A stretch of 40,138 nt of DNA. It comes from a virus. The notes under the pieces were generated by a model that worked only from the letters and a program-made list of their open reading frames with translations, had not been told where the DNA came from and made no database searches. A program made the translations under genes and the position numbers. The stretch's first letter is position 1; each line of letters starts with the position of its first letter. Positions 416-16,284 of this stretch are shown here, piece by piece. The DNA lies in the IMG/VR virus record IMGVR_UViG_3300042691_035629, positions 1 through 40,138 of that record; one strand, given 5' to 3'.

Positions 416-430
416 GGTAGGCGCAAGAAG

Positions 431-516
431 CACCAAGCCCCGCGCGCGTTGCCGCGGCGGGGCTTGGTGAGGGGCACGAGCCCCGAGGTGTGGCAGCGCG
501 CAGAGGGCAGAAGCCC
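431..516 (-). terminator. Three consecutive hairpins between the Q-like gene and the late operon
   Basis: Three inverted repeats fill the 116-nt gap between genes. The largest has perfect 13-bp arms (431-443 and 457-469). Two smaller ones are GGGGC-ACGA-GCCCC (471-484) and GGGC-AGAA-GCCC (505-516). On the minus strand the large hairpin is followed by CTTCTTG, a weak U-tract. The position, after a small HTH regulator and before HNH/terminase, matches that of the lambda late terminator that Q overrides. Terminator function is inferred. Confidence 0.6.
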
Positions 517-531
517 CGAGCTTGCCGAACT

Positions 532-906
532 CTAGCCGGGATCGTCTATGTTGCAAAAAATCGGCGCATGAAGCGCTGCAGCCAGCTGGCGGTGCGCTTC
601 ATCAATGCGCGCGTGCACGGTGCTGGGCGCGCACCCTACCCGCTCCGCATGCTCGGCCGCGCCCAGCTTGAGACAGTAGTGCGCCACGACCGTGTTCCGC
701 AGCCGCATGCTCAGCTGCCGTATGGCCGAGTGCGTCTCGGCCGCATCGCCCTGCTTTGCCACCTTCAGCGTGGGCGTGGTGCCCGGCGATGGCGGCGACC
801 AGCTCCGATCGAGCACGTTCACAGCCGGGAAGCCCGAGCCGTCACCCACCGTCACCACCTGCGCCCAGCGCTGCAGCCGCGCCTCGATGTCAGCCCTGCG
901 AGCCAT
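532..906 (-). CDS. Small HTH protein, candidate late-gene regulator (Q-like by position)
   Basis: This 124-aa protein has a C-terminal segment resembling sigma-70 region 4 or a related helix-turn-helix: HYCLKLGAAEHAERVGCAP followed by STVHARIDEAHRQLAAAL, about residues 75-115. The ATG at 906 lies inside the end of the upstream gene (17-nt overlap), so the two are probably coupled. It is the last gene of the leftward replication operon and directly precedes the hairpin cluster and the late operon. By analogy with lambdoid phages this suggests an antiterminator or late activator. No direct homology to lambda Q can be claimed from the sequence, and another DNA-binding role is possible. Confidence 0.65.
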   Translation of the reverse strand: MARRADIEARLQRWAQVVTVGDGSGFPAVNVLDRSWSPPSPGTTPTLKVAKQGDAAETHSAIRQLSMRLRNTVVAHYCLKLGAAEHAERVGCAPSTVHARIDEAHRQLAAALHAPIFCNIDDPG

Positions 907-1219
907 GCTGCCCCTGCGCTTCTGTGGCCTGCTCAGGCCAGATCACCACCCAGCACGCGCCGAAGCTCACCATCGCCTCGGCCACTGCCGCGTTGATCGG
1001 GTGCCCTGCAGCGAAGGGCGTGCCGACCACGTGCCCTGCCTCCATGGCCCAGAAGCAGTTCGGCTCACCGCCCAAGCCGCGGCGCACCAGCGCGAAGGCA
1101 CTGCGGCCAATCTCCCCGGCCTTGCGTTGAATGGCCGCGTAGGTGTGCGGCATCGTCAGCTTGATCGCCTGAGCCTGACGGTCGATTTCCTGTCGGTTCG
1201 GCTTGGTTCCGTCCACCAC
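890..1219 (-). CDS. Hypothetical protein, 109 aa
   Basis: I do not recognise this family. The start is taken as GTG at 1219, six bases after an AAAGG ribosome-binding site at 1226-1230. In-frame GTG codons at 1225 and 1216 are alternatives. The protein begins with a charged stretch (TKPNRQEIDRQAQAIK) and has a hydrophobic C-terminal half (FGACWVVIWPEQ). There is no signal peptide and no clear catalytic motif. Its stop overlaps the start of the HTH gene at 906, placing it in the same leftward operon downstream of the primase. Confidence 0.6.
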   Translation of the reverse strand: MVDGTKPNRQEIDRQAQAIKLTMPHTYAAIQRKAGEIGRSAFALVRRGLGGEPNCFWAMEAGHVVGTPFAAGHPINAAVAEAMVSFGACWVVIWPEQATEAQGQHGSQG

Positions 1220-1577
1220 GTCCACCCTTTCTATAGAGATCAACACACACTCGCAAAAGCCGCGCGCGCGTTCGTGCGCAGACGCCTGCACCCGCCCGCC
1301 CCTGCATCGAGGCGCCGCGATCGGCCATGCAGCGGCTCAGCCTGGGCCAACAGCGGCAACCCAAGGGCCGGTGCACTCCATGCGATGGCCGGACGGCCTG
1401 GACGGCCGCGCCTTGCCCGCGCCTGGTCGACAGCTGCGCTACGTCATAGGCCCGTGCAGCGATCTCCCCGCCACGGCGCCGCACCGGGGGCCGCGAATCG
1501 CGCCTCCCGCACCCGGTGTGCCCCGTCGCGTATCGAGAGCCGCGACCTTTTCCGCAGCCCGGTGCTGCGCTCGCTGG
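1220..1577 (-). other. Region without a confident gene (358 bp)
   Basis: This gap separates the primase stop from the next minus-strand gene. A possible 51-aa minus-strand frame (1591 to 1439) has an ATG overlapping the primase stop region, but it is rich in Arg, Gly and Ala and has no recognisable domain. The right-hand part contains a TATAGA sequence just before the ribosome-binding site of the 890-1219 gene and the motif GCAGACGCCTGC at 1278-1289. I see no RNA gene. Confidence 0.4.
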
Positions 1578-4220: not shown

Positions 4221-4231
4221 GGAACCCCGGC

Positions 4232-4528
4232 CTACTGCTCAGCGAACAAGGCAGCTTGCTGCCCACCGCCATGCAGCGCGGCCGACAGGCTGTGCAAGGC
4301 CTCGTGCACCGAGCTGCCCGGTGGCGGCACGCCCAGCACCCGAGGCCGCCCCTGCGCCACCACCACCAGCGCCCGCGCGGCCAGCAGCCGGCTGGCGGTG
4401 TAGCGCGCCACGCCAAAGCCCACCTGGGCGCGCGCGGCAAGGTCCTTCACGGCAGCAGGGCCCTGCCCCGCTGCCTGCACCAGCGCCTCGGCCACCGGGC
4501 CGTATGAACGTGCAGGCCGACCCCGCAT
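4232..4528 (-). CDS. Small putative winged-helix DNA-binding protein, 98 aa
   Basis: This short basic protein has a pattern suggesting a winged helix: AVKDLAARAQVGFGVARYTASRLLAARALVVV, about residues 25-57, reads as helix, turn, recognition helix and wing. The ATG at 4528 shares one base with the preceding TGA (TGATG), so it is translationally coupled. It lies directly upstream of the primase-helicase, where phages often encode an origin-binding or loader accessory protein. That role is inferred only from position. Confidence 0.6.
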   Translation of the reverse strand: MRGRPARSYGPVAEALVQAAGQGPAAVKDLAARAQVGFGVARYTASRLLAARALVVVAQGRPRVLGVPPPGSSVHEALHSLSAALHGGGQQAALFAEQ

Positions 4529-4791
4529 CAGGCCCCACCCTCGCGCCGGCCGGCCAGCTTGAGCAGCGGCCAGTTGTCCCGGTTCAGGCTGAAGCCGTCG
4601 GGCATGTTCGTGGCCACCGGCCGGCCATCAGGGCGCAGGTACTCGAGGTGCGCCACCGCGGCGCCATTGCGCAGCATCGGCTCGTGGTAGTCCACGTCGC
4701 GCACCACGCACAGGCGGCCCATGGGCGTGCGGTACACGGCAGCCGGGTCTAGCCGAGGCGGCAGCGCGCCCGATACAGCGCGCGCGTTCAT
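4528..4791 (-). CDS. Hypothetical protein, 87 aa
   Basis: The family is not recognised. The start is ATG at 4791, forming an ATGA overlap with the stop of the 4788-5156 gene. The protein contains YRTPMGRLCVVRDVDYHEP and a segment reading HLEYLRPDGRPVATNMPDGF, which look like beta-strands joined by short turns. It has no membrane segment. It sits second in a chain of three coupled genes ahead of the primase, so a role around replication is plausible but unproven. Confidence 0.65.
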   Translation of the reverse strand: MNARAVSGALPPRLDPAAVYRTPMGRLCVVRDVDYHEPMLRNGAAVAHLEYLRPDGRPVATNMPDGFSLNRDNWPLLKLAGRREGGA

Positions 4792-5156
4792 GCCGCCCTC
4801 CGGTTGCGCTGCGCCTGCAGCTCCTCCATCAGCGTGACGCGGCTGTCCTGCGCCAGCCACTGCACCAGCACCGTGTTGCCCAGCACCAGGCAGGAGATGC
4901 CCGCCTTGCGCGCCGGCAGCTCGCGCCGCGTTTCATGCACGCTGAAGTAGTCCGAGCAGTGGCTCACGTAGCTGTCGGTGAGCTCGGCAAAGGTGCGCAG
5001 CGTGATGCGCGGGTTGCGCAGCTTCCACGCCAGGCGGCAGGCATGGCGCCAGCTCTTCAGGCCCATCACCACCTCGGGCGGCACCACCAAGCGCTGGGGC
5101 TGCACCACACCACCCAGCAAGGGCAGCGGCAGCGTCAGGCGATCAATAGATTTCAT
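4788..5156 (-). CDS. Hypothetical protein, first gene of the replication operon, 122 aa
   Basis: The ATG at 5156 is preceded on the minus strand by purine-rich AAGGGAACGGG. The protein is moderately basic and apparently helical, with the stretch SWRHACRLAWKLRNPRITL and the C-terminal VTLMEELQAQRNRRAA. I do not recognise the family. It is the first gene after the minus-strand terminator at 5241-5269, so it would be transcribed either from a promoter in 5157-5240 or by read-through from the Cro-like promoter. Confidence 0.65.
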   Translation of the reverse strand: MKSIDRLTLPLPLLGGVVQPQRLVVPPEVVMGLKSWRHACRLAWKLRNPRITLRTFAELTDSYVSHCSDYFSVHETRRELPARKAGISCLVLGNTVLVQWLAQDSRVTLMEELQAQRNRRAA

Positions 5157-5240
5157 GGGCTTACCCGTTCCCTTACCAGTTGAATCTGGCCGAAGCTGTA
5201 GGCATGCAACCGCATCGCATGGCCGGCTCAGCCGAAGAAG

Positions 5241-5269
5241 AAAAAGCCCCCAGCCCGAAGGCCGAGGGC
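5241..5269 (-). terminator. Rho-independent terminator on the minus strand
   Basis: A ten-pair stem (5246-5255 with 5260-5269) closes on a tetraloop and is followed on the minus strand by five T residues (5245-5241). Two positions that would be C-A mismatches in a plus-strand RNA become U-G pairs in a minus-strand RNA, so the structure clearly belongs to minus-strand transcripts. It separates the Cro-like transcript from the replication operon, a position equivalent to lambda tR1. Confidence 0.8.
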
Positions 5270-5360
5270 GAAGCCGTCCCGGCCGCTCAGGGAGGAGGCA
5301 GCGGCCACCGGGTAGGCCGGCACCAACAGGACGGAAGTGACAACCGCATGGCGGTTAGGT

Positions 5361-5383
5361 GGGCGCCCTGTCTGGGTTACGCT
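5361..5383 (+). promoter_or_regulatory. Leader/promoter-like element, copy 1
   Basis: GGGCGCCC at 5361-5368 is followed nine bases later by TACGCT (5378-5383) and GGCGGTC. The same arrangement with identical spacing lies upstream of the gene at 5913. TACGCT is a plausible minus-10 box about 40 bases before the ATG. No convincing minus-35 is visible, and GGGCGCCC is itself palindromic and could bind a regulator. Confidence 0.4.
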
Positions 5384-5420
5384 GGCGGTCCCCACGACTA
5401 CCAGCCCCAGGAGGGCGCCC

Positions 5421-5711
5421 ATGAACTTGAACCAGAACCCCGGCGGCTTCAGCCCGGCCGAGAACTTCATCTGCGGCACGCTAGAAGCGCAGCGCGTGTG
5501 CATGCTTACGCTGCTCACGTGTGTCGACAGCTCACTGGCACCCATCACGGCAAAGCTGTTGGCTCAACGCGCGCGGGAGACTCGCCAGCAGCTGCCTGTG
5601 GCAATGGAGAGGTACTTCGATCCGGTGATCGAAGAAGCCCTTGCTCGGCTAGAAAGACCGTCCACGGATTCCGAGCAGCAAAGCGAGCCGCGATCTGGCG
5701 GTCCCACTTAA
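5421..5711 (+). CDS. Hypothetical small accessory protein, 96 aa
   Basis: The ATG at 5421 is preceded by an excellent ribosome-binding site, AGGAGG (5409-5414). The N-terminal two thirds show the strong third-position G/C bias of the neighbouring genes and include an amphipathic helical stretch, ITAKLLAQRARETRQQL. The C-terminal 20 residues are less biased. It has no known domain and no membrane helix. It stands alone on the plus strand between two leftward transcripts, with a leader element shared with the gene at 5913. This fits an independently transcribed accessory (moron-like) gene expressed from the prophage. Confidence 0.6.
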   Translation: MNLNQNPGGFSPAENFICGTLEAQRVCMLTLLTCVDSSLAPITAKLLAQRARETRQQLPVAMERYFDPVIEEALARLERPSTDSEQQSEPRSGGPT

Positions 5712-6671: not shown

Positions 6672-7037
6672 ATGCATTACCGGCGCTCAGTTGATCCGCG
6701 TGACCGAATCCGCGAACTGCGTACCCTTCGGGGCTTCCGCAGTGATCGTGCTTTGGCCACTGCAGCGGGCCTTGAACAGCCGACGCTGTCGCGCTACCTC
6801 AGCGGGAAGACCAAAGAGATGACAGTCGACAACCTTGAAGCGCTGGCAAGAACGCTCAAGGTCACGCTCAGCGAGTTGATCGGCGAAGTGCCGCTGTCAT
6901 CACGCGCCGCTGTGGGCGAGGCCGAAGCCATCTTCCGTCTGCTGAGCGACGACCAGCTGCGCCAAGTCATCAACGTGGCACGGGCCCTGTTCCCGCACGA
7001 GACGGGCGGCTTTAAGCCTCCGGCAAGTCCAGAGTAA
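6672..7037 (+). CDS. Phage repressor, XRE-family HTH, 121 aa
   Basis: The protein carries a canonical XRE helix-turn-helix in residues 12-67, including ALATAAGLEQPTLSRYLSGK followed by TKEMTVDNLEALARTLKVTL. A short C-terminal region (EAEAIFRLLSDDQLRQVINV) may mediate oligomerisation. It lacks the Ser-Lys peptidase domain of LexA-like CI repressors, so induction must use another route. The ATG at 6672 lies in the palindrome ATGCAT, which also forms the start of the divergent Cro-like gene. It is flanked by promoters carrying the same operator motif, the layout of a lysogeny switch. Which of the two HTH proteins keeps lysogeny is inferred. Confidence 0.8.
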   Translation: MHYRRSVDPRDRIRELRTLRGFRSDRALATAAGLEQPTLSRYLSGKTKEMTVDNLEALARTLKVTLSELIGEVPLSSRAAVGEAEAIFRLLSDDQLRQVINVARALFPHETGGFKPPASPE

Positions 7038-7170
7038 CGCTGAACAGGCCGTCCGGGCCGCCGCCGTAGACCCGGCAGCCAACGGCCACTTCGCCCAGAT
7101 GGCCAAAGCCGTCGCGCTGCAGCGCCTGGCGGAAGGTAGCAGGGAAAATGATGCGTCGATGTATTGACAC
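7012..7170 (-). CDS. Possible small protein, 52 aa, convergent with the repressor
   Basis: A minus-strand frame opens with GTG at 7170 (TTG at 7173 is an alternative) inside the rightward promoter. It ends 26 nt inside the 3' end of the repressor gene. It reads a compact, protein-like sequence, FRQALQRDGFGHLGEVAVG followed by CRVYGGGPDGLFSVTLDLP, with good codon bias. No ribosome-binding site is obvious and the start lies within operator DNA. I do not recognise it. It could be a small regulator transcribed leftward or a chance frame. Confidence 0.4.
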   Translation of the reverse strand: MSIHRRIIFPATFRQALQRDGFGHLGEVAVGCRVYGGGPDGLFSVTLDLPEA

Positions 7171-7192
7171 CAACGATACGCGGACGCATCAT
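7149..7192 (+). promoter_or_regulatory. Rightward early promoter with two operator sites
   Basis: TTGACA (7164-7169), a 17-nt spacer and CATCAT (7187-7192) form a promoter for the plus-strand early operon. A perfect 10-bp inverted repeat (7148-7157 and 7183-7192) brackets it. The site at 7174-7191 shares GATACG-N4-CGCATCA with the operator at 6622-6639. A weaker site at 7149-7166 overlaps the minus-35 box. Repressor binding here would block the promoter. Confidence 0.7.
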
Positions 7193-7220
7193 CGTGCCGT
7201 CAACACGACGGAGGCGCCAA

Positions 7221-7580
7221 GTGCCGCACACAGCAACCATCCGAGCCACCGACCTAGACTTCGTCTTGGTCGCCCACCGGCTGCGCCGCCGCACCCACGG
7301 CCGCACCCCGGCCCTGTGCGTGATGTCCCCGGGCCCGTACCTGCATGTGGACTGCGCGAGCAGCAGCGAGCACACGCGGCCCGGCCTCATCGCCACCGCC
7401 AAGCGCCTGGGCGCGGCCCCGCTGAACAGCCAGCCGCTCATGCGCGGCCACATCGGCCGCCTCATCGAGCGCACGCGCCGCCAGCACGGCCTGGCTGAAG
7501 TGCGCCGCACCTGGCGCACCGGCCTGCGCGCCCTGCTGGCCGAGCCGCGCCACGTGCTGCACGGGGGTGCCGCGTCATGA
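7221..7580 (+). CDS. Hypothetical early protein, 119 aa
   Basis: This is the first gene of the rightward early operon. The GTG at 7221 is chosen because GGAGG (7210-7214) lies six bases upstream. The protein is basic and Arg-rich, with a central segment LCVMSPGPYLHVDCASSSE and a helical C-terminus (LIERTRRQHGLAEVRRTW). No known family is recognised. It overlaps the next gene by ATGA. Being first behind a repressor-controlled promoter, it is expected to be expressed immediately on induction. Confidence 0.65.
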   Translation: MPHTATIRATDLDFVLVAHRLRRRTHGRTPALCVMSPGPYLHVDCASSSEHTRPGLIATAKRLGAAPLNSQPLMRGHIGRLIERTRRQHGLAEVRRTWRTGLRALLAEPRHVLHGGAAS

Positions 7581-7951
7581 GTGCCCTCGACGACGCCATC
7601 GCCACCCACATGGCCCACGGTGCAGGCGCCTGCGCCGACCCGCTCACCGACAGCCTGGCCGAGCAGTGCGCTCACTCGGCCGAGCCGCCGCCCCGGCTGC
7701 ACCTGCGGCCGGGCTGGGAGAACGAGCCGCCCGAGCCGCCCATCCCCTGGCGCTGGATCTGGCCGGCCGCCGCCGCGGTGACGCTGCTGCTGGGCTTGCT
7801 GGGCGGCTGCGGCGGTGGCGAAGAGCCCTGCCGAGCCGACTTCACCGGCCCGCCCGCGCCGGGCTTCGAAGACCTGCCCGTGTGCGAAGACCCGGGCCGC
7901 GCCCGCATCACCCCGCCCGCCTGCGTGGCCGACCCGAGGCTCTGCGCATGA
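7577..7951 (+). CDS. Small membrane protein, 124 aa
   Basis: The start is ATG at 7577, coupled to the preceding stop by ATGA. One clear membrane helix, WIWPAAAAVTLLLGLLGG, about residues 63-80, follows a Pro- and Trp-rich segment. The C-terminal 45 residues contain four Cys and many Pro and may lie outside the membrane if the orientation is N-in. The family is not recognised. Together with the next gene it forms a pair of small early membrane proteins. Host takeover or superinfection exclusion are possible roles, but neither is shown by the sequence. Confidence 0.6.
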   Translation: MSALDDAIATHMAHGAGACADPLTDSLAEQCAHSAEPPPRLHLRPGWENEPPEPPIPWRWIWPAAAAVTLLLGLLGGCGGGEEPCRADFTGPPAPGFEDLPVCEDPGRARITPPACVADPRLCA

Positions 7952-8199
7952 GCGGCCTGCACATCCCCCTGCCCCGCCGCGCGCCGCCTTACGGCAGCAC
8001 GCCGCCGGCCAGCTTTGACGCCAGCGGCCCCGCGCCGCACACCGCCGCACTGAAGGGCACCTGGCTCGACGGCTACGCCTACGGCGAGCGCGTGGGCCAC
8101 GTCACCGGCTGGCGCTGGGGCATGGTCTGCGGCGGTGGCGTGATGCTGCTGCTGTGCACCGTGGCCGTGGCCGCAGCCAAAGGCCTGGGGTGGCTGTGA
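7948..8199 (+). CDS. Small membrane protein, 83 aa
   Basis: ATG at 7948 overlaps the previous stop (ATGA). The N-terminal half is soluble and Pro-rich. A central GTWLDGYAYGERVGHVTGWRW segment leads into a C-terminal membrane helix, WGMVCGGGVMLLLCTVAVAA. This gives a tail-anchored topology. No known family is recognised. It is coupled to the following gene by TGATG. Confidence 0.6.
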   Translation: MSGLHIPLPRRAPPYGSTPPASFDASGPAPHTAALKGTWLDGYAYGERVGHVTGWRWGMVCGGGVMLLLCTVAVAAAKGLGWL

Positions 8200-8642
8200 T
8201 GGGCGCTGCACTCCCCCAAGCCCACTCGCACGCCCACCCGCACGGCCGGCGCGTGCAGGCGCCTGCACAGCCGCCGCGCCACCCTGGCGCGCTGCGCGTC
8301 ACCGGCAGCCTCACCAGCGCGGCCGAGCTGCGCCCCACCACCGACGTGCCCATGCGCCTGCTGCTGTGCGTGCAGCTGCAGCCCGAGCGCGGCCTGCCCT
8401 ACGTGGCGCGCGTCGACCTGGGCACCGACCCCAGCGACCACTTGGCCGCAGACGCACTGCTGCCCCATCTGCGCGCCGGGGCCGTGCTGAGCGTGGCTGC
8501 GGAGGCACTGGAGTTGCGCAGCGACCACGCCTGCCAGGTGCTGCGCCTGGTGCAGCCGCACAGCGTGCTGCTGCTCGAGCACCCGCGCGAACCCGCCGGC
8601 GCGGCCGAGCCCGACCTCTTTGCCACCGCCACAGGAGCCTGA
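8199..8642 (+). CDS. Hypothetical protein, possible OB-fold, 147 aa
   Basis: ATG at 8199 shares a base with the upstream TGA. After a His/Pro-rich N-terminus the segment ALRVTGSLTSAAELRPTTD, then LLLCVQLQPERGLPYVARVD, reads as alternating beta-strands. It resembles the first strands of small OB-fold single-strand-binding proteins of the PriB/SSB kind, but the resemblance is weak. The N-terminal coding region contains a palindrome, GTGCAGGCGCCTGCAC (8253-8268), repeated in the ParB-like gene. If it does bind single strands it would support replication and also influence attC folding further down the operon, which is speculation. Confidence 0.5.
   Translation: MGAALPQAHSHAHPHGRRVQAPAQPPRHPGALRVTGSLTSAAELRPTTDVPMRLLLCVQLQPERGLPYVARVDLGTDPSDHLAADALLPHLRAGAVLSVAAEALELRSDHACQVLRLVQPHSVLLLEHPREPAGAAEPDLFATATGA
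8254..8275. repeat. 22-bp exact repeat containing GCAGGCGCCTGC, copy 1
   Basis: This 22-bp stretch recurs exactly at 11163-11184 inside the ParB-like gene. Its palindromic core GCAGGCGCCTGC also occurs at 7622-7633, and a one-base variant, GCAGACGCCTGC, at 277-288, 1278-1289 and 3892-3903. It is a candidate binding site for the phage ParB-like protein. Confidence 0.6.
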
Positions 8643-8644
8643 CC

Positions 8645-9019
8645 ATGCCCCCGCACGACACGCCCGTCATCCTGCGCGATGGCCCTTTCACGGTGCTGGC
8701 CCAGCGCCACGAGGTGATGTTCCACGACGGCCTGGCCGTGGGCCTGCACCCGGTGGCCAGCCACGGCCAGGTGCAGGTGTTCCTGCGCGCGGTGCATGCC
8801 GAAGGCATACGCTGGGTACTGTTCGATTTGCGCCAGGTGCCCGGCGAGCTGCACGACGATCTGCTGCGCTTGCAGCCGCGCGACCACATCGGCGCGGTGT
8901 TCTACACCCTGCGCCTGCAGTACCGCACCCGCAAAGCCTTCGTCGACGCGCTCGACAAGCTCGCGGTGCGCACGTGGTGGGCAGGCAAAGCGCAGCAGCT
9001 GCAGGAGCTGGCTGCATGA
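8645..9019 (+). CDS. Hypothetical protein, 124 aa
   Basis: ATG at 8645 is preceded by AGGAG (8632-8636). The protein has mixed alpha/beta character with segments such as VILRDGPFTVLAQRHEVMF and IRWVLFDLRQVPGELHDDLL, and a helical C-terminus. No membrane helix and no recognised motif are present. It overlaps the dNMP kinase gene by ATGA, so it may act in early metabolism, but no function can be assigned. Confidence 0.65.
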   Translation: MPPHDTPVILRDGPFTVLAQRHEVMFHDGLAVGLHPVASHGQVQVFLRAVHAEGIRWVLFDLRQVPGELHDDLLRLQPRDHIGAVFYTLRLQYRTRKAFVDALDKLAVRTWWAGKAQQLQELAA

Positions 9020-9582
9020 CGGGCGCCCACTGCACCAAGCCGCTGCTCATCGGCCTAGTGGGCCGCGCCGGCGCGGGCAAGAGCACAGTGGCCGGCATGC
9101 TGAGCGAGGACTACGCCTTCACCGAGCTGGCCTTTGCCGAGCCACTGCTCGACATGGTGTGCGCACTGTTTGCCCATGCCGGCATCGATGGCGCCTGGGC
9201 CGTGGAACGCGCCCTCAAGGAACAGCCCACCACGCTGGGTTTCAGCTACAGGCACCTGGCGCAGACGCTGGGCACCGAGTGGGGCCGCGGCCTGGCGCCC
9301 GACTTCTGGGTGCGCGTCATGGAGCACCGGCTCTCGAGCCCCGCCCTCGAGGGCGACAACCTCGTCATCAGCGACGTGCGTTTCCCGAACGAAGCCGAGC
9401 TCATCACCCGCCGCGGCGGCGTGCTGGTGCGCGTGCTGCGCAACGGGCCAGGCCACACCCGCGCCCACATCAGCGAGCAGCACGTCGACACGCTGCCCGT
9501 CCACACCGAGCTGCTGAACTTCGGCAGCACCGCCACGCTGGCCGACCAGGTCGACCGGCTCATCCACACCCTGAGGAGCTGA
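9016..9582 (+). CDS. Deoxynucleoside monophosphate kinase
   Basis: The 188-aa protein has an N-terminal P-loop GLVGRAGAGKSTVAGML (about residues 13-29) and the segment VISDVRFPNEAELI. That second segment is characteristic of the phage dNMP kinase family related to T4 gp1. Such enzymes phosphorylate dNMPs to dNDPs, feeding precursors to phage DNA synthesis in the cytoplasm. The length and the order of motifs fit the family. The ATG at 9016 overlaps the upstream stop. It sits mid-operon with unknown early genes and the ParB-like gene. Confidence 0.85.
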   Translation: MTGAHCTKPLLIGLVGRAGAGKSTVAGMLSEDYAFTELAFAEPLLDMVCALFAHAGIDGAWAVERALKEQPTTLGFSYRHLAQTLGTEWGRGLAPDFWVRVMEHRLSSPALEGDNLVISDVRFPNEAELITRRGGVLVRVLRNGPGHTRAHISEQHVDTLPVHTELLNFGSTATLADQVDRLIHTLRS

Positions 9583-9586
9583 CCCC

Positions 9587-11488
9587 ATGGCCGACACAGG
9601 CACGCCCGACACCATCATCCAGATCCCGCTCGAGCACCTGCACGAGAGCCCCTTCAACCCGCGCAAAACCTTCACCGCCATCGACGAGCTGGTGGCCAAC
9701 ATCAAGGGCGAGGGGCGCATCCACTCGCCGCTGCTGGTGCGCCCGCGCATCCCGCCGCTCTTCGACGCAGGCGCCGACACCCAGCCCGAGGCCGTGGCCG
9801 GCTACGAGCTCGTCTTCGGCCACCGCCGCTATCGCGCCGCCCAGCTGGCCGGCCTGGCCACCGCGCCGTGCATGGTGCGTGCGATGACGGACGCCGAGGC
9901 CCGCAGCGCGCAGATCGCCGAGAACCTGGCGCGCAAGGACGTGCACCCCATTGAAGAGGCCGAGGGCTTCGAAGCCATGCTCAGGCACGACGGCATCACC
10001 GCCGACGAGCTGGCCGGGCTGGTGGGCAAGAGCCGCAGCTACGTTTACGGCCGCCTCAAGCTGCTGCAGGCCGTGCCGCAGGTGCGCGATGCGTGCCTGC
10101 GCGGCGAGATCGACGCCGAGGCCGCGCTGCTGGTCGCGCGCGTGGGCCTGGCCAAGCTGCAAGAAAAGGCCCTGGCCCGCATCAAGGCCATGAGCGTGAG
10201 CCTGGGCGACGGCGGCAAGGCCAGCTACAGGCGCATCAAGGCCGAGCTGGCCGACAGCTTTACGCTGCAGCTCAAGGGCGCCATCTTCGACCGCGAAGAC
10301 GCCCAGCTGCTGCCCGGCGCCGGCACCTGCAGCGCCTGCCCCAAGCGCACGGGCAATTCGCCGGTGTTCGAAGACGTGGCCACCGAGGGCATCAACACCT
10401 TGAGCTGGGAGCACAGCTCGCTCAACCACGTGGGCGAGCCCAACCGCTGCACCGACCCCGACTGCTGGGACGCCAAGACCAAGGCGCACCTGGCCGCCGG
10501 CGCGGCCAAGCTCGAGGCCGAGGGCAAGCTCGTCGTCACCGGCAACAAGGCGCGCCAGGCACTGGATGCAGCCGGCACCCCGCGCAACGGCTACCTGCCG
10601 CTCGATCGCGTGAAGGCCGAGCTGAAGAAGGCCGCCAGGCCCGTGCCGGTGGTGCACGTGCAAGACCAGCGCACCGGCAAGCTCGTGAAGGCGGTGCGCC
10701 GCGAAGACCTGGTGGCCGCGGGGCTGGCCAAGCCAGAGCCCAAGGCGGCCGAGAAGGGCCGCAAGGACGAGAGCTACGAAGCCCGCCAGAAGCGCCAGGA
10801 GGCCGAGTACCAGGCCAAGCGCGAGAAGGCGGCCGCAGACACCGAGGCCAACCGCCGCTTGCTGCTGGCCGTGCGCGGTGCGGCCGCCACCCGCGAGCGC
10901 ACTGAGTTCGAACTGCGGCTGCTGGTCGCCGCGGCGCTGGCGTCGACGAGCTACGACGTCTGGCCCACGCTCACCTGGCTGTACGACAGCGACATGGAGA
11001 GCCTTAAGCGCCGCGTGGACACCATGAGCGCGGACGAGCTCACGCAGTTGCTGCTCGACTGCGCCATCGTCGACCACGTCGAGACGCGAGCGGGCTGGGA
11101 CGAGAAGCCCGAGCCGCTGCTGGCCCTTGCCGCGCACTACGGCATCGACGCCCTGGCCGCCATGCAGGCGCCTGCACAGCCGCCCACTGAAGGCACTTCT
11201 ACCCCTTCCACCGCTGGCGCGCGCGCAAAGCATGCGGCGCCCAAGGGCGTGGCGTATCACTGCGCCGAGACAGGCGAGTCGTGGTCTGGCCGGGGCCTGC
11301 GGCCCGCCTGGCTGCGGGCCAAGATCGCTGGAGGCGCGTCGCTGAGCGACTTCGCGGTGGCCAAGAAGGCCAAGCCCGAAGCCAAGAGCAAGACCAAGGG
11401 CAAGAAAGTGAATGACGACGCCGGCTCCGCCGGCGGCCAGGGCGCCACCACCGCGGGGCTCTTCGAGGCGAATGAGGTGCACGCATGA
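9587..11488 (+). CDS. ParB-like DNA-binding protein with H-NS-like C-terminus
   Basis: This 633-aa protein begins with a ParB/Srx domain: ESPFNPRKTF, then ELVFGHRRYRAAQLAGL, the NTP-binding GHRRYRAA motif. The ENLARKD box and an HTH (TADELAGLVGKSRSYVYGRL) follow at about residues 145-165. A Cys cluster (CSAC, then CTDPDC) around residues 246-300 may bind zinc. A charged coiled-coil linker follows. The last 80 residues contain GESWSGRGLRPAWLRAKIAG, which matches the H-NS C-terminal DNA-binding motif. There is no ParA in the window, so plasmid-style partition is unlikely. Transcription control, DNA organisation or replication-site marking are more plausible. Confidence 0.85.
   Translation: MADTGTPDTIIQIPLEHLHESPFNPRKTFTAIDELVANIKGEGRIHSPLLVRPRIPPLFDAGADTQPEAVAGYELVFGHRRYRAAQLAGLATAPCMVRAMTDAEARSAQIAENLARKDVHPIEEAEGFEAMLRHDGITADELAGLVGKSRSYVYGRLKLLQAVPQVRDACLRGEIDAEAALLVARVGLAKLQEKALARIKAMSVSLGDGGKASYRRIKAELADSFTLQLKGAIFDREDAQLLPGAGTCSACPKRTGNSPVFEDVATEGINTLSWEHSSLNHVGEPNRCTDPDCWDAKTKAHLAAGAAKLEAEGKLVVTGNKARQALDAAGTPRNGYLPLDRVKAELKKAARPVPVVHVQDQRTGKLVKAVRREDLVAAGLAKPEPKAAEKGRKDESYEARQKRQEAEYQAKREKAAADTEANRRLLLAVRGAAATRERTEFELRLLVAAALASTSYDVWPTLTWLYDSDMESLKRRVDTMSADELTQLLLDCAIVDHVETRAGWDEKPEPLLALAAHYGIDALAAMQAPAQPPTEGTSTPSTAGARAKHAAPKGVAYHCAETGESWSGRGLRPAWLRAKIAGGASLSDFAVAKKAKPEAKSKTKGKKVNDDAGSAGGQGATTAGLFEANEVHA
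11163..11184. repeat. 22-bp exact repeat containing GCAGGCGCCTGC, copy 2
   Basis: This is an exact copy of 8254-8275, here within the 3' part of the ParB-like gene. Both encode the peptide QAPAQPP in unrelated proteins, which argues for selection on the DNA rather than on the protein. Confidence 0.6.
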
Positions 11489-11727
11489 AGCTCTCCACCC
11501 GACGGCGCCTCATGGCCAGGCGGCTGGGCAACCCGGCAGGCTCCACTGTCAGCGTGCTGCACATCCAGCCGCGCGACACGCTGGTGGTGTTTGTGCCCGC
11601 CACGATCTCGGCCGAACAAGCCCAGCGCGCGGCGCAGTACTTCCGCCAGGCGGCGGGCCACGAGCGCGTGCTGGTGGTCGACAACCGCACCGGTCTGGGC
11701 GTGCTGCGCGGAGGCCGTACGCGATGA
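11485..11727 (+). CDS. Hypothetical protein, 80 aa
   Basis: ATG at 11485 overlaps the ParB-like stop (ATGA). The protein has a basic N-terminus (KLSTRRRLMARRLG), then STVSVLHIQPRDTLVVFVP and ISAEQAQRAAQYFRQAAG, a beta-beta-alpha-like arrangement. It has no recognised family. The coupling suggests co-expression with the ParB-like protein. Confidence 0.6.
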   Translation: MKLSTRRRLMARRLGNPAGSTVSVLHIQPRDTLVVFVPATISAEQAQRAAQYFRQAAGHERVLVVDNRTGLGVLRGGRTR

Positions 11728-11969
11728 GCATCCAGCGCATCGACAGCGACACCACCCATGGCTGGCAGGCGCGGTGGCCGGTCGACGGCCAGCGCGGCAA
11801 CGGCCTGACCATGCTGTGCAGCGACGGCGTGCACGGCGGCCCCGACAAGGCCCACCGCGCCGCCCGCGCGGCCGAGCGCCTGCTCAAGCTGCAGGCCCAG
11901 CAGCTGCGCCGCAGCGTGCTGCTGGCCGAGCTGCAGCACCTGGTGCCGAAGGGCGGCGCGCAGTCATGA
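11724..11969 (+). CDS. Hypothetical protein, 81 aa
   Basis: ATG at 11724 is coupled by ATGA. The N-terminal half resembles a small beta-sheet domain (TTHGWQARWPVDGQRGNGLT). The C-terminal half is a long helix (HRAARAAERLLKLQAQQLRR). The family is not recognised. It is one of the short accessory genes at the distal end of the early operon. Confidence 0.6.
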   Translation: MSIQRIDSDTTHGWQARWPVDGQRGNGLTMLCSDGVHGGPDKAHRAARAAERLLKLQAQQLRRSVLLAELQHLVPKGGAQS

Positions 11970-12421
11970 GCCGCAAGCGCTGCCGCCGCCGCATCTGGGC
12001 CGCTATCCCGCCACGCGAGCTGCTGCCCAAGCTGCCCGCCGACCAGGTACGTGAGCTCAGCCTCGTGCACTCGAGCAACCTGGATCTGCTAGCCACCGGT
12101 AAGGCCAGCGAGCAGGTGATGTGGGATCTGGTGAGCGGAGTGCTGCTCTGGTCGAAGGCGGCCGAGCAGATGAAGGCGGGCGTCGACGAGATGATCGAGC
12201 AGGTGCAGCTCGTCACCGCCATCGTGCAGCGATATGGTCGCACCGGGCGCGTGGGCCTGAGCGGCGCCGAGTACCAGCTGGCCAAGCGCGGCGTGGAAGT
12301 GATAGACCAGCTGGCCGAGCTCGTCGACAAGCCCACCGCGATCGCGTGCGCCGAGTGGGGCCTACTGAAGATGCGCGAGATGGCTGCAGCGGCGGCGGCT
12401 GAAGTGAGGCGGGCCGCGTGA
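11966..12421 (+). CDS. Hypothetical helical protein, 151 aa, last gene before the integron
   Basis: ATG at 11966 is coupled by ATGA. The protein is basic at the N-terminus and then mostly helical: QVRELSLVHSSNLDLLATGK, SKAAEQMKAGVDEMIEQVQL and GVEVIDQLAELVDK are amphipathic. I do not recognise a named family. Its TGA ends at 12421, only one base before the R core of the attC site. The integron boundary therefore falls exactly at the end of this gene and leaves it intact. Confidence 0.65.
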   Translation: MSRKRCRRRIWAAIPPRELLPKLPADQVRELSLVHSSNLDLLATGKASEQVMWDLVSGVLLWSKAAEQMKAGVDEMIEQVQLVTAIVQRYGRTGRVGLSGAEYQLAKRGVEVIDQLAELVDKPTAIACAEWGLLKMREMAAAAAAEVRRAA

Positions 12422-12422
12422 G

Positions 12423-12524
12423 GCCTAACGCCTGGCTGAACTGGAGACAACGGCCATGACCAAGCAACCCGAAGCGCGCGAACCTAACCAGCCGTTGGCT
12501 CTCAGTTCGAGCGCAGTGTTAGGC
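12423..12524 (-). other. attC recombination site of an integron cassette
   Basis: The site begins and ends with the integron core sequences GCCTAAC (12423-12429) and GTTAGGC (12518-12524). Between them, 12430-12454 pairs with 12491-12517 through a second box (GCTGAACTG against CAGTTCGAGC), an unpaired spacer and a CAACGGC/GCCGTTG stem, leaving a variable loop at 12455-12490. Read on the minus strand, the arm next to R'' carries one extra, extrahelical C and the right core reads GCGTTAGGC. These are features of canonical attC orientation. The folded, recombining strand would then be the plus strand of the window. The length of 102 bp is normal. Confidence 0.85.
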
Positions 12525-12794
12525 CCCGCCTTGCGCGTGGTGAGCAGCAGCAGCGCCGGCATGCGCGTAGACCACATAGACCCGGACGGCAATGCTTCGC
12601 TGCGCATTCACCTGTGGCGCGACCCGGACGAATGCAACATGTGCGGTGCGCTGGGCTACCACTCGCACGCGGTTCCGTGGTACTGCGGCCCGGTGGCAGA
12701 AGGCGACAGCGAAGGCGGCTACAAGGCCGTGTGCGTGCGCTGCTATGGCCGCTGGGAAGCATGGGATGCCTCCCTGCGGTATTGCGGGGCCTAA
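12456..12794 (+). CDS. Integron cassette gene: small Cys-rich (zinc-ribbon-like) protein, 112 aa
   Basis: The frame lies entirely inside the predicted cassette (12429-12794). Its TAA is the last three bases before the recombination point. The ATG at 12456, inside the attC loop, has GGAGA at 12443-12447. An internal ATG at 12561 would give 77 aa, and the protein-like part begins there. The core reads HLWRDPDECNMCGALGYHSH, PWYCGPVAEG and AVCVRCYGRWEAWDASLR, with two CxxC pairs suited to binding zinc. No named family is assigned. The gene runs opposite to the normal cassette direction and so is co-transcribed with the phage early operon and intI. Confidence 0.7.
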   Translation: MTKQPEAREPNQPLALSSSAVLGPALRVVSSSSAGMRVDHIDPDGNASLRIHLWRDPDECNMCGALGYHSHAVPWYCGPVAEGDSEGGYKAVCVRCYGRWEAWDASLRYCGA

Positions 12795-12827
12795 CGTCAA
12801 TTCGACCGCAGCTTCCGCGCCGTAACA
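12789..12827 (-). other. attI-like integron insertion site
   Basis: On the minus strand a GTTAGGC core (12795-12789) lies 32 bases downstream of TGTTACG (12827-12821). From memory of the class 1 attI1 site, TGTTACG precedes GTTAGGC there by 33 bases, so the geometry is almost the same. The site is directly upstream of the integron integrase gene on the opposite strand, the normal integron layout. No attC-like fold is visible, as expected for attI. The cassette would begin at base 12794 and run leftward. Confidence 0.65.
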
Positions 12828-12836
12828 CCAGCCGCC

Positions 12837-13907
12837 ATGCTCACCACCCAGGCACCGCCCACCTCTGCGCCTGTTACGCGCCGCGCTGAGGCGGGGTTCG
12901 CGCGCACGGCAAGCGCTGCGCCGGAGCCTGGCGAGCGCGGCCACCTGCAGCACCTGCTGGTGTCGGCCATCCGCACCCGCCACTACAGCCGCCGCACCGA
13001 GCAGGCCTATTGGCACTGGACGCGGCAGTTCGTGCTCTGGTCTGGCAAGCGTCACCCGATCGACATGGGCGCCCCCGAGGTCGGTGCGTTCCTGTCCTAC
13101 CTCGCCACCGAGCGCGGCGTCAGTGCCAGCACCCAGCGCCAGGCCCTGGCCGCGCTGCTGTTCCTGTACCGCCAGGCGCTGCAGCTCGAGCTGCCCTGGG
13201 TCGACGACATCGTGCGGGCCAAACAGCCGCAGCGCCTGCCGGTCGTGCTCACGCGCGACGAGATCGGCCGCCTCTGGCAGCAGATCCCGCAGGCCTCGCG
13301 CCGCGGCTTGGTGCTGCGCCTGCTGTACGGCACCGGCATGCGTCTGCTCGAGGGCCTGCGCCTGCGCGTGAAAGACATCGACTTCGGCACCGGCAGCATT
13401 ACCGTGCGCGGCGGCAAGGGCAACAAGGACAGGACCGTCATGCTGCCCCAGAGCCTGGCGCCCGAGCTGCGCGAGGTGCTGGCCGAGCGCGAACGCTGGC
13501 ACTCGGTCGATCTGGCCACCGGCCACGCCGACGTCGAGCTGCCCGGCGCTCTGCACCTCAAGTACCCGGCCGCGCCGCGCCAGCTGGGCTGGCAGTTTGT
13601 CTTCGCCACCGAGGCTTATGTCACCTGCCCGCGCACCGGCGCCATCCGCCGCCACCACCTGCACGAAGACGGCATCCAGCGCCTCATGGCCAAGGCCGTG
13701 AAGGCGGCGCGCATCCACAAGACGGCCACGCCGCACACCCTGCGCCACAGCTTCGCCACGCACTTGCTGCAGGCAGGGTACGACATCCGCAGCATCCAGC
13801 AGCTGCTGGGCCATGCAGACGTCGAGACGACGATGATCTACACGCACGTGCTGCCGGCCAGCCAGGGCGGCCGCGGCGTGCTGAGCCCGCTCGACACCCT
13901 CGCCTGA
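12837..13907 (+). CDS. intI: Integron integrase (IntI-type tyrosine recombinase)
   Basis: The 356-aa protein follows the integron integrase pattern throughout. HYSRRTEQAYWHWTRQF forms the N-terminal core-binding region and LLYGTGMRLLEGLRLRVKD holds the first catalytic Arg (about residue 169). GGKGNKDRTVMLP holds the Lys, HTLRHSFATHLLQAGYDIR holds His/Arg (about 300-303), and TTMIYTHVL holds the Tyr (about 335). The diagnostic IntI-specific insert is present: LPGALHLKYP through FVFATEAY to RRHHLHEDGIQRL, about residues 235-282. The C-terminus GGRGVLSPLDTLA is also typical. All catalytic residues are kept, so it is probably active on attI x attC. The TGA overlaps the ATG of the HTH gene (TGATG). 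There is no strong ribosome-binding site. Confidence 0.93.
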   Translation: MLTTQAPPTSAPVTRRAEAGFARTASAAPEPGERGHLQHLLVSAIRTRHYSRRTEQAYWHWTRQFVLWSGKRHPIDMGAPEVGAFLSYLATERGVSASTQRQALAALLFLYRQALQLELPWVDDIVRAKQPQRLPVVLTRDEIGRLWQQIPQASRRGLVLRLLYGTGMRLLEGLRLRVKDIDFGTGSITVRGGKGNKDRTVMLPQSLAPELREVLAERERWHSVDLATGHADVELPGALHLKYPAAPRQLGWQFVFATEAYVTCPRTGAIRRHHLHEDGIQRLMAKAVKAARIHKTATPHTLRHSFATHLLQAGYDIRSIQQLLGHADVETTMIYTHVLPASQGGRGVLSPLDTLA

Positions 13908-14266
13908 TGCCGACGACCTGGTCACTCGACGACGCCGCCGCGGCGCTGAAGACCAGCGCCGAGACGGTGAGCGACTGCATCCACAATCGCGGCCTGCCGG
14001 CGGCGCGCATCGGCCGGGCTTACGTGCTGGTCGACGACGACGTCATCGCCTGGCTGCGCACACAGTACGGCAAACACCAGGGGGCAGCATGCGGCTCTAT
14101 CAACGCGGCGAACGAGGCACGTGGTGGGTTGACCTCGGCGAGGTCGCCGGGCAGCGCGCTCGACGCAGCACTGGCACCAGCGACCGCGCCGCGGCGCAGG
14201 AATACGCCGCCACCCTTGCGCGCGATCTCTGGCGGGCCCGCCGGCTCGGCGAAACCCCCACGGTGA
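13907..14266 (+). CDS. Excisionase-like helix-turn-helix protein
   Basis: The first 60 residues form a MerR/excisionase-type HTH: WSLDDAAAALKTSAETVSD, then CIHNRGLPAARIGRAYVLVD and DDVIAWL. Such small proteins bend attachment-site DNA and direct excision. The ATG at 13907 shares its first base with the intI stop. The remaining 60 residues are low-complexity and overlap the integrase gene for 178 nt in another frame. The functional part is therefore probably the N-terminal domain, with the tail a by-product of the overlap. Its place directly before the phage integrase supports an Xis role. Confidence 0.65.
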   Translation: MPTTWSLDDAAAALKTSAETVSDCIHNRGLPAARIGRAYVLVDDDVIAWLRTQYGKHQGAACGSINAANEARGGLTSARSPGSALDAALAPATAPRRRNTPPPLRAISGGPAGSAKPPR

Positions 14267-15381
14267 CGTGGGACCAGGCCGTCGTGGCTTGGTTGGAAGA
14301 GCACCAGCACCGCCGCAGTATCGAAGAAATCAAGCGCGTGCTGCGCTGGCTCACCGGCCACCTGCGCGGCAAGGCGCTGGCCGAGATCACCGACCCCGTC
14401 ATCCGCCAGCTGGCCAAGGCCCGCAAGGCCGAGCCCGTCAACCGCCGCACCATCGCCCGCGCGCTCGCGGCCGACAAGCCGGCCCCGAAGCCCAAGCCCA
14501 CCAGCGGCGCCACCGTCAACCGGCACCTGGCCCAGCTCAGCGCCGTGCTGCACTACGCCCACAAGCGCCGCTGGCTCGACGCCGTGCCGCCCATCACCAA
14601 GGCGCCCGAGCCCGCCAAGCGCGTGGCCTGGCTCACCCGAGACCAGGCCGAGCTGCTGCTGGCCGAGCTGCCGCCGCACCTGCGCGCCATGGCCCGCTTC
14701 GGCCTGGCCACCGGTCTGCGCGAGACGAACATCCGGCTGCTCACGTGGCACCAGGTTGACACCGCCCGCGCCGTGGCGTGGTTTGAGGCAGCCGAGATGA
14801 AGGCCGCCAAGGCCCACAGCGTGCCGCTCAACCCCGAGGCGTTGCAGGTGCTGGCCCTACAGCGCGGCAAGCACCCGCGCTGGGTGTTCCCGGTGCCGCA
14901 CTGGGTGCCGGGCGACAAGCCCGGCGACAAGCCCCGCCTGGTGGAAGACGCGCCCACCGGCAAGATCAGCAGCGCGGCCTGGCGCAAGGCCTGCACCCGC
15001 GCAGGCGTGCCCTGGCTGCGCTTCCACGATCTGCGCCACACCTGGGCCAGCTGGCACGTGCAGGCCGGCACCCCGCTGGCCGTGCTGCAGGAACTGGGCG
15101 GATGGGCCAGCCTGGCCATGGTGCAGCGCTACGCCCACCTGGGCAGCAGCCACGTGGCGCAGTGGGCCGGAAACCTCTCCCGAGGCGGCACAACTCTGGC
15201 ACAACCTGCACCGGCACCCACCAACGAAAAAGCCCCCGAAGGGGCTGTTCACGAGGGAGAAGCGGTGGGGTGGCTGATGGGACTCGAACCCACGACGACC
15301 AGAATCACAAGACGTTCCCAGGGCGCCGAGGTGTTGAAGATCAACGACTTACAGCGCCGCCGCAAGCCTAAAGCGGCTTGA
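14089..15381 (+). CDS. int: Phage tyrosine integrase (tRNA-His site)
   Basis: This 430-aa recombinase has catalytic residues in ATGLRETNIRLLTWHQVD (Arg about 210), HDLRHTWASW (about 313-316) and the Tyr in MVQRYAHLG (about 348). It catalyses integration and excision of the prophage. The C-terminal tail GWLMGLEPTTTRITRR is the translation of the antisense of a tRNA 3' half, so the attP core lies inside the coding region. Integration would replace the last codons with host sequence. The late-operon terminator and an 18-bp direct repeat also lie within the 3' end. The ATG at 14089 follows GGGGG. Confidence 0.93.
   Translation: MRLYQRGERGTWWVDLGEVAGQRARRSTGTSDRAAAQEYAATLARDLWRARRLGETPTVTWDQAVVAWLEEHQHRRSIEEIKRVLRWLTGHLRGKALAEITDPVIRQLAKARKAEPVNRRTIARALAADKPAPKPKPTSGATVNRHLAQLSAVLHYAHKRRWLDAVPPITKAPEPAKRVAWLTRDQAELLLAELPPHLRAMARFGLATGLRETNIRLLTWHQVDTARAVAWFEAAEMKAAKAHSVPLNPEALQVLALQRGKHPRWVFPVPHWVPGDKPGDKPRLVEDAPTGKISSAAWRKACTRAGVPWLRFHDLRHTWASWHVQAGTPLAVLQELGGWASLAMVQRYAHLGSSHVAQWAGNLSRGGTTLAQPAPAPTNEKAPEGAVHEGEAVGWLMGLEPTTTRITRRSQGAEVLKINDLQRRRKPKAA
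15186..15203. repeat. 18-bp direct repeat, left candidate integrase arm site
   Basis: CGGCACAACTCTGGCACA occurs here and at 15385-15402, on either side of the attP core (62 and 74 bp away). Paired direct repeats flanking a core are typical of integrase arm-binding sites. Confidence 0.65.
15227..15246 (-). terminator. Late-operon terminator (minus strand)
   Basis: A six-pair stem AGCCCC/GGGGCT (15231-15236 and 15241-15246) closes on a UUCG tetraloop in minus-strand RNA. It is followed by five T residues, one of which closes the stem. It is the first terminator met after the last lysis gene and lies antisense inside the integrase gene. Confidence 0.8.
15266..15310 (-). other. attP: attP core: 3' half of tRNA-His
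   Basis: On the minus strand 15310-15266 reads the 3' half of a tRNA. It holds an anticodon loop TTGTGAT with anticodon GTG (His), a T-arm GTGGG-TTCGAGT-CCCAT, the acceptor strand CAGCCAC, the discriminator C typical of tRNA-His, and CCA. The 5' half is missing, so it is not a tRNA gene. About 45 bp of identity would rebuild the host tRNA after integration. It occurs once and undisrupted, as in an excised or virion genome. Confidence 0.88.
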
Positions 15382-15384
15382 CGC

Positions 15385-15402
15385 CGGCACAACTCTGGCA
15401 CA
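15385..15402. repeat. 18-bp direct repeat, right candidate integrase arm site
   Basis: Exact copy of 15186-15203, just past the integrase stop. It is followed by two further GGCACA-like elements (15405-15420), giving an extended right arm. Confidence 0.65.
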
Positions 15403-15439
15403 GGCCGGCACAGCCGGGCACGGTGTTGGCACTGGGCGC

Positions 15440-15547
15440 TCAGCGGCGCCGGCTGCGCCACAGGTCGCGCAGGGTCACGGCCAGGCCGAGCAGCACCAGC
15501 GGGACACAGAGCAGCGCCGGCACCACCATGGCAGCCAACCGCCTCAT
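15440..15547 (-). CDS. Tiny membrane peptide, 35 aa
   Basis: ATG at 15547 overlaps the Rz1 stop (ATGA). The peptide is one membrane helix (MVVPALLCVPLVLLGLAVTL) followed by the basic tail RDLWRSRRR, giving N-out/C-in topology by the positive-inside rule. It is the last gene of the late operon. A role in lysis is inferred only from position. The family is not recognised. Confidence 0.5.
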   Translation of the reverse strand: MRRLAAMVVPALLCVPLVLLGLAVTLRDLWRSRRR

Positions 15548-15777
15548 CGCACCACCGCCAGCGCCGCCGCCCTGCACTGCCAGTACAGCCCCACCACCTC
15601 GAGCAGCTTGCGCGTGGTGCCGCCGAAGCTGTCGTCGGCCAGCGGCGTGAGCTCAGGGCACGACGCCACCACCAGCGGCGCTGCCGGCGGCGGCGGGGCC
15701 GAGCGCGGCATTGATGCGCTGCAGCTGCTCAGGAGAATGGCGGCAGTCACGGTACTCAGTACGCACCTGGATCTCAC
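15544..15777 (-). CDS. Rz1-like outer-membrane spanin lipoprotein
   Basis: The GTG at 15777 opens a frame that overlaps the 3' part of the Rz gene out of register, the classic Rz/Rz1 arrangement. The 77-aa product starts with a short lipoprotein signal (VLSTVTAAILLSSC) with Cys19 in the lipobox. A Pro-rich stretch (APPPPAAP) follows, as in Rz1 proteins. After lipidation it would sit in the outer membrane and pair with Rz to fuse the membranes at lysis. It extends 109 nt beyond the Rz stop, so it is only partly embedded. Confidence 0.78.
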   Translation of the reverse strand: MRSRCVLSTVTAAILLSSCSASMPRSAPPPPAAPLVVASCPELTPLADDSFGGTTRKLLEVVGLYWQCRAAALAVVR

Positions 15778-15985
15778 GCTCGACCTCCTGGCGGATGGTG
15801 GTGTGTCGCACGCTCATGCGGGCGATGGCCTCGGCGGCCGCAGTGGCGCTTGCCTGGCCTGCCTGCGCGATGAGCCGCTCGTCGCGCGCCGCCTCGGCCT
15901 CGACTGCGCTGCGGCCGTCTTGCCGGCCCTGCCAGTAGGCACCGCCCGCGGCCGCGGCGGCCAGCAGCAGTGCCCAGGGCCACAT
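15653..15985 (-). CDS. Rz-like inner-membrane spanin
   Basis: This 110-aa protein has an N-terminal membrane helix (WPWALLLAAAAAGGAYW) and then a long periplasmic, charged coiled-coil region (AVEAEAARDERLIAQAGQAS and on to HTTIRQEVEREIQVRTEYRD). That is the usual Rz design. With Rz1 it spans the periplasm and disrupts the outer membrane after the wall is opened. The ATG at 15985 lies two bases after the upstream stop (TGATCATG). Confidence 0.78.
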   Translation of the reverse strand: MWPWALLLAAAAAGGAYWQGRQDGRSAVEAEAARDERLIAQAGQASATAAAEAIARMSVRHTTIRQEVEREIQVRTEYRDCRHSPEQLQRINAALGPAAAGSAAGGGVVP

Positions 15986-15987
15986 GA

Positions 15988-16284
15988 TCACGTCGGCGCC
16001 CTTTCGTCCAGATCCCCCGCCCTGCTGTCCAGCCGCGTGCCGGCGGGCGCCGCGTAGCGCCAGCGCGGCGCGCCGGCCAGCAGGTACATGGTCACGCCCA
16101 GGGCCATGCTCAGCTTGCCCAGCGCGCCCGGGAACATCAGCCCGCCCATCAGGCCCAGGCCGATGACCAGGTGCGCCAGGAACACGCCCGGGTCTGTGAC
16201 CTTGTGGCGCATCTGGTTGACTCTGCAGACCACGCTCCACAGCGCCGCCAGGATGAGGGCAGCCGTCAGCACGCCGATCGTCAT
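15988..16284 (-). CDS. Small multi-pass membrane protein, holin candidate, 98 aa
   Basis: ATG at 16284 overlaps the preceding stop (ATGA). Hydrophobic segments MTIGVLTAALILAALWSVVC, VFLAHLVIGLGLMGGLMF and KLSMALGVTMYLLA suggest three membrane helices with a charged C-terminus. Size, topology and position directly before the spanins fit a class I holin, which makes the inner-membrane lesion that times lysis. It has no recognised family signature, and the adjacent membrane proteins are rival candidates. Confidence 0.6.
   Translation of the reverse strand: MTIGVLTAALILAALWSVVCRVNQMRHKVTDPGVFLAHLVIGLGLMGGLMFPGALGKLSMALGVTMYLLAGAPRWRYAAPAGTRLDSRAGDLDERAPT

Follow-up and report, generated by a model that had tools for sequence, protein, structure and literature searches.

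Integrons are regarded as bacterial and their layout as fixed: a Pc promoter and an attI site are followed by cassette genes that read away from them. The locus described here raised the question of how an integron is organized, and how its cassettes might be expressed, when it is found in a phage genome with its cassette gene pointing the other way. The window, that is, the whole stretch of DNA analysed, was the 40,138-bp virus record IMGVR_UViG_3300042691_035629. Comparison of its sequence with related loci led us to conclude that it very probably contains a one-cassette integron of a phage-specific lineage, whose back-to-front cassettes would be read by a phage operon rather than from a Pc promoter.

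The minus strand of the window encoded terminase, portal, head protease, major capsid, neck, tail, and tape-measure genes (PHROG matches). Thus, the terminase, portal, capsid, and tail genes of a tailed phage (Caudoviricetes) were present on the same contig as the integron. On the plus strand, an early-type operon that included a kinase-like and a ParB-like gene was located upstream of the integron (Table 1); the ParB-like protein had a C-terminal H-NS domain. The final operon gene was followed by the attC, the cassette, the attI, intI, an excisionase-like ORF, and a second, ordinary phage integrase. This final gene had homologues beside the phage integrase in two integron-less relatives, L298 and L300, and ahead of the array in phage contig L022. 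Additionally, an ORF similar to the excisionase-like one preceded the phage integrase in L298 and L300. An Rfam search returned no matches.

Table 1. Features of the integron and its phage surroundings (window coordinates).
Feature	Position	Strand	Remarks
Kinase-like gene	9016-9582	+	Early-type operon
ParB-like gene	9587-11488	+	Early-type operon
Final phage-operon gene before the array	11966-12421	+	TGA stop 1 bp ahead of attC
attC	12423-12524	-	Canonical top strand on minus; folded bottom strand on plus
Integron cassette, 366 bp	12429-12794		Between two crossover points (G^TTAGGC on minus)
Shine-Dalgarno GGAG	12443-12446	+	Inside attC, 9 nt before ATG 12456
Reversed cassette ORF, 112 aa	12456-12794	+	TAA 12792-12794 forms the final 3 bases of the cassette
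attI	12789-12836	-	R-box core GCCTAAC (plus) and segment CGTCAATTCGACCGCAG..GCGTAACACC
Integron integrase IntI	12837-13907	+	TIGR02249 integrase_gron, 424.7 bits (cut-off 265)
Excisionase-family ORF	13907-14110		TIGR01764 over cut-off; overlaps the intI stop
Second, ordinary phage integrase	14089-15381		

The borders of the cassette were sharply defined. Two GCCTAAC cores (R boxes) were located at 12423-12429 and 12789-12795, and the corresponding G^TTAGGC crossover points fell at 12428|12429 and 12794|12795, in exact agreement with the cassette limits given in a preliminary description of this DNA. In the attC, the R''/R' boxes GCCTAAC/GTTAGGC paired at 7 of 7 positions, pairing also extended over a long L arm, and the hairpin folded with -23.5 kcal/mol. 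Read on the minus strand, the site had extra unpaired bases in its 5' arm and the 3' core GCGTTAGGC. The attI segment was conserved next to intI in a comparison of the regions upstream of intI from 12 phages, and the attI is likely, as we infer, to contain integrase-binding sites.

The direction of the attC was established with a covariance model built from 23 attCs that were taken only from bacterial integrons, each in its canonical direction; it replaced a first heuristic finder that had missed many sites. The model matched 12423-12524 on the minus strand (34.9 bits, E=3e-6) and gave no plus-strand match to the window attC. The preliminary description had argued for a canonical minus-strand orientation from the extrahelical base and the core alone, and had named placement on the plus strand as one outcome that would speak against it; the model came down on the minus strand. 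In phage contigs, the same bacterial-only model found about 190 attC matches, those upstream of intI were essentially all on the minus strand, and attC polarity relative to intI was canonical. These observations also bear on the idea that the phage integrase recombines the opposite attC strand, in which case the polarity would be inverted in function and the genes would have a "normal" orientation with respect to the strand in use. The attC arms were indeed near-palindromic, and both strands could fold. However, the strand with the core, extrahelical-base, and L-box signature and the polarity relative to intI and attI both matched those of bacterial sites, and the IntI retained its integron-integrase signature. 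We therefore considered such a strand switch very unlikely.

The integrase itself had Pfam matches to Phage_integrase and SAM_4, and its residues R169, K194, H300, R303, H326, and Y335 were invariant in 12 relatives. Accordingly, the locus had an IntI gene with catalytic residues, an attC with R and L boxes and extrahelical bases, an attI adjoining intI, and a fixed attC polarity, all of which are features of integrons. No LexA box (CTGT-N8-ACAG with at most one mismatch), as expected of an SOS-regulated integron, was present near 12700-12840, and LexA-box matches in the window were fewer than the chance mean.

The plus-strand frame that had been proposed for the cassette was recovered as a 112-aa ORF starting at ATG 12456. 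Its TAA directly preceded the crossover point, the suggested ribosome-binding site was present within the attC, and the two predicted CxxC pairs were found (CNMC and CVRC). The first 23 residues of the product were encoded by the attC. A 77-aa ORF from the ORF-finder list (12592-12825) was in a different frame. When the cassette was shuffled 2000 times by dinucleotides, 21 of the shuffled sequences contained an ATG-initiated ORF of 112 aa or more on one strand or the other. The product had no homologues in viral contigs, phages, plasmids, Pfam, PHROGs, or NCBIfam, and the zinc-ribbon family search gave no family match. A similarity to L080:7738-8055 was limited to the attC-encoded N-terminus and was rejected as homology. 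A single-sequence structure model was of low confidence (mean pLDDT 62), with residues 1-24 scoring below 50 and the remainder higher; it gave no convincing fold match, and its PDB matches to kinases (E about 0.04, low TM) were disregarded. The two CxxC pairs would at best allow a guess that this is a small metal-binding protein.

The GC-by-codon-position score of the ORF was slightly negative (-3.3). Since the ORF was also an orphan, its coding status rested on its position, its Shine-Dalgarno sequence, its length, and the pattern across the family. The orphan status and the negative score could also fit another explanation, namely that plus-strand ORFs were spurious high-GC frames and that the cassettes contained normally oriented genes or none: ORFs on both strands are common at 69% GC, and this particular ORF had neither a homologue nor a positive codon-position score.

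The IntI relatives were drawn from viral contigs, from bacterial and archaeal genomes, and from the chromosomes of two order-rank searches centred on Pseudoduganella and Luteimonas genomes. Gene direction was called by the same script, a heuristic of our own, for phage and bacterial cassettes, with a noise of about 10% as judged on bacteria. Among 168 phage cassettes from 49 metagenomic IMG/VR contigs with related IntI, 150 genes were reversed, 11 were canonical (9 when contig L101 was left out), and 7 were unclear. In contrast, 90 bacterial chromosomal cassettes from 22 loci, processed by the same pipeline, included 63 canonical, 7 reversed, and 20 unclear cases. Fisher's test gave P of about 1e-36, a value that is overstated since cassettes share ancestry and are not fully independent. 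The reversed fraction of about 10% in bacteria was close to the caller noise, and the canonical exceptions in phages therefore fell within noise as well. Contigs bearing a terminase gave, on their own, 88 reversed against 4 canonical cassettes. Thus, in the survey of relatives that the preliminary description had called for, reversal was the rule.

Other strand criteria varied in their power. The longest ATG-only ORF of phage cassettes was on the reversed strand in 128 cases and on the other strand in 34, and ATG codons with a Shine-Dalgarno sequence of at least 5 nt were found 84 times on plus and 10 times on minus. The longest ORF with any start was dropped as a criterion because it did not separate the strands in phage cassettes at about 70% GC, and a GC-frame score separated the strands poorly in bacterial controls (37 to 51).

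The content of the cassettes also bore on the coding strand. On the reversed strand, 41 phage cassette ORFs matched 35 PHROG and 9 Pfam families, including DNA methylase/methyltransferase, DEAD/SNF2 helicase, PAPS reductase, HD hydrolase/phosphohydrolase, and DUF4326, with phrog_5086 matched three times. The 34 opposite-strand ORFs had no PHROG match and a single marginal Pfam match (9.5e-4). The reversed genes were thus, as a group, real and phage-like. Moreover, starts preceded by a Shine-Dalgarno sequence clustered 10-40 nt after the attC or within it. Spurious frames, very unlikely as an explanation, were thus already contradicted family-wide by these sequence data. None of the 150 reversed proteins matched the bacterial control cassette genes. 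One reversed ORF (L080:9525-9893) had a weak match to the Acb2/Tad1 hairpin (22.9 bits, below the Pfam cut-off of 27) and is a possible anti-CBASS/Thoeris cargo.

The attC of these phages also seemed to have a second role, that of a 5' leader. The reversed genes started mostly 10-40 nt past the attC or inside a long attC. Among long phage attCs (at least 80 nt), a Shine-Dalgarno sequence with ATG was present on the reversed strand in 32 of 71 (about 45%) and on the opposite strand in 3 of 71, as compared with 1 of 32 and 0 of 32, respectively, for long bacterial attCs. In proteins that started in the attC, the attC-encoded N-terminus comprised about 10-25 residues. It has been reviewed that bacterial attC hairpins hinder ribosomes heading to the next gene (PMC8876359); a translation start inside the hairpin may avoid this hindrance. 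Thus, the phage cassettes look as if they were built reversed, with the attC as a 5' leader that often carries a Shine-Dalgarno sequence and a start codon, which sharpens the earlier proposal that phages select reversed cassettes.

The phylogeny indicated how this architecture was distributed. An IntI tree (172 rows) grouped 71 of the 74 viral IntIs in a single clade (SH-aLRT 97) that was nested within IntIs of proteobacteria. All reversed arrays with an IntI in the tree belonged to this clade, and the three viral IntIs outside it (L094, L099, and L101) had no reversed array. Since all tree-placed reversed arrays were in one clade, the reversed architecture may have a single origin and have been passed on by descent. 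A large terminase was found on 27 of the 49 surveyed contigs, and the terminases matched three different family models, indicating that the integron occurs in more than one phage type. When named phages were searched for DNA similar to the locus, only a 45-bp match was obtained. A contig binned to a Rubrivivax MAG (JAJTDE010000039.1, L103) shared its IntI match with phage contig L033, which hinted at a Burkholderiales host for this phage group. Virus Rctr41k (L183, KX853513.1) had, at 68-5678, an IntI-like gene with 45% identity after a run of small co-directional genes, and no attC was found in it by the models used.

One IntI clade could also be expected if all reversed cassettes had been inherited from a single founding array in the absence of further capture and of selection for direction. 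We considered this explanation very unlikely because the 150 reversed proteins formed 122 clusters, and because near-identical phages had different cassettes with breakpoints at the cores. Namely, L025 and L036 had flanks about 96% identical on both sides, but from the attC core to the attI core they carried different cassettes and could not be aligned. In L298 and L300, the same two flanking genes were present with no integron between them, as expected of an accessory insertion. Two neighbouring cassettes at L038:8594-9981, whose called ORFs repeated at a 666-bp shift, looked like an apparent cassette duplication. In L022:5081-5512 (also in L023 and L289), intI had a large internal deletion that fused its N-terminus to its C-terminal end and the cassettes remained, representing decay toward a CALIN.

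Continuing capture with selection on direction, which we preferred, could operate as follows. IntI would catalyse attC x attI recombination in these phage integrons, as we infer from the breakpoints, and such insertion would fix the polarity of the attC. A gene reversed relative to its attC would then share the direction of the phage operon, which continues through the site into intI. Because insertion fixes attC polarity, only cassettes with a reversed gene would end up in this direction, and selection would keep them. The cassettes would be transcribed from the phage operon in place of Pc, with intI on the same message, and position in the array would matter less since each gene would have its own ribosome-binding site. 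The integron would shuffle small phage accessory genes between phages.

Where it was callable, the nearest upstream phage gene was on the same strand as the cassette genes in 38 of 40 arrays. A consensus scan found no sigma-70-like promoter reading into the array, with the reservation that promoters of high-GC hosts are easily missed; the only sigma-70-like site in 7000-16000 was at 7164 on the plus strand, upstream of the operon. This was consistent with cassettes that would need no Pc. It could be argued that gene direction is set by replication direction or by folding of the attC strand rather than by transcription, since array orientation relative to replication is conserved in chromosomal integrons (PMC8946536, PMC11551772). 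Replication constraints, however, act on attC polarity, whereas the flip observed here was that of the gene relative to its attC and not of the attC relative to intI. Given also the agreement with the upstream phage gene, we regarded a replication-based explanation as highly improbable and retained expression from the phage operon.

Comparison with known systems helped to define the element. Like mobile and chromosomal integrons (class 1, Vibrio, Xanthomonas), it had an IntI, an attI at the intI start, canonical attC structure and polarity, and mostly one-gene cassettes. In contrast to them, it was carried by phages, its cassette genes faced attI and intI instead of facing away, its genes had the attC at their 5' end, in some cases with a Shine-Dalgarno sequence and ATG inside it, and no Pc was found by the sigma-70 scan. 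Thus, neither in the window nor in the 150 reversed phage cassettes did the genes read away from intI as they would from a Pc. That orientation is the usual layout and no strict requirement, and the element is an integron variant, not a non-integron.

In Treponema-type integrons, intI is inverted and shares its direction with the cassette genes (PMC3607928). A common strand for intI and cassette genes was found here as well. However, in the Treponema type intI is flipped and reads toward attI, and the genes keep their usual relation to the array, whereas the intI of the window started next to attI and was transcribed away from it, and the genes were flipped. One phage contig with a large terminase (L101:10001-12854) did have a Treponema-type layout, with an array of canonical genes downstream of intI and an IntI outside the main phage clade. 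Occasional reversed cassettes are known from chromosomal integrons, for example the Xanthomonas symE cassette (PMC12444791). They also place a gene against the array direction, but they are isolated exceptions that are not under Pc control; in the phage clade, reversal was the rule.

Phages with integron parts have been reported previously, including Vibrio phages p16/p42, P1, Shewanella M16-3, TJE1, PH101, and P12002L (Qi et al. 2023, PMC9892861). Known phage integrons are mostly host-derived or canonical. The integrons and CALINs of that paper were described as host integron fragments or as having cassettes in typical orientation, unlike the reversed ones described here, and its accessible part contained no mention of reversed cassettes. 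In TJE1, we found two weak attC matches on the same strand as its genes, which is the canonical arrangement. No report of reversed cassettes in phages was found in the open-access literature.

Taken together, it seems likely that a monophyletic, phage-only integron lineage keeps its own pool of reverse-coded cassettes, in which the attC would serve both as a recombination hairpin and as a leader with a Shine-Dalgarno sequence and start codon. The captured phage genes, perhaps for counter-defence or host takeover, would be expressed from the operon without Pc and would pass between different phages. Gene calls in such arrays may be wrong where a tool presupposes the canonical direction. The old question of how a gene and its attC are joined in one polarity becomes directly testable. 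Moreover, a phage clade with inverted gene polarity suggests that the architecture of cassettes is set by the context of their expression rather than by recombination chemistry, and phages would gain a dedicated platform for trading accessory genes.
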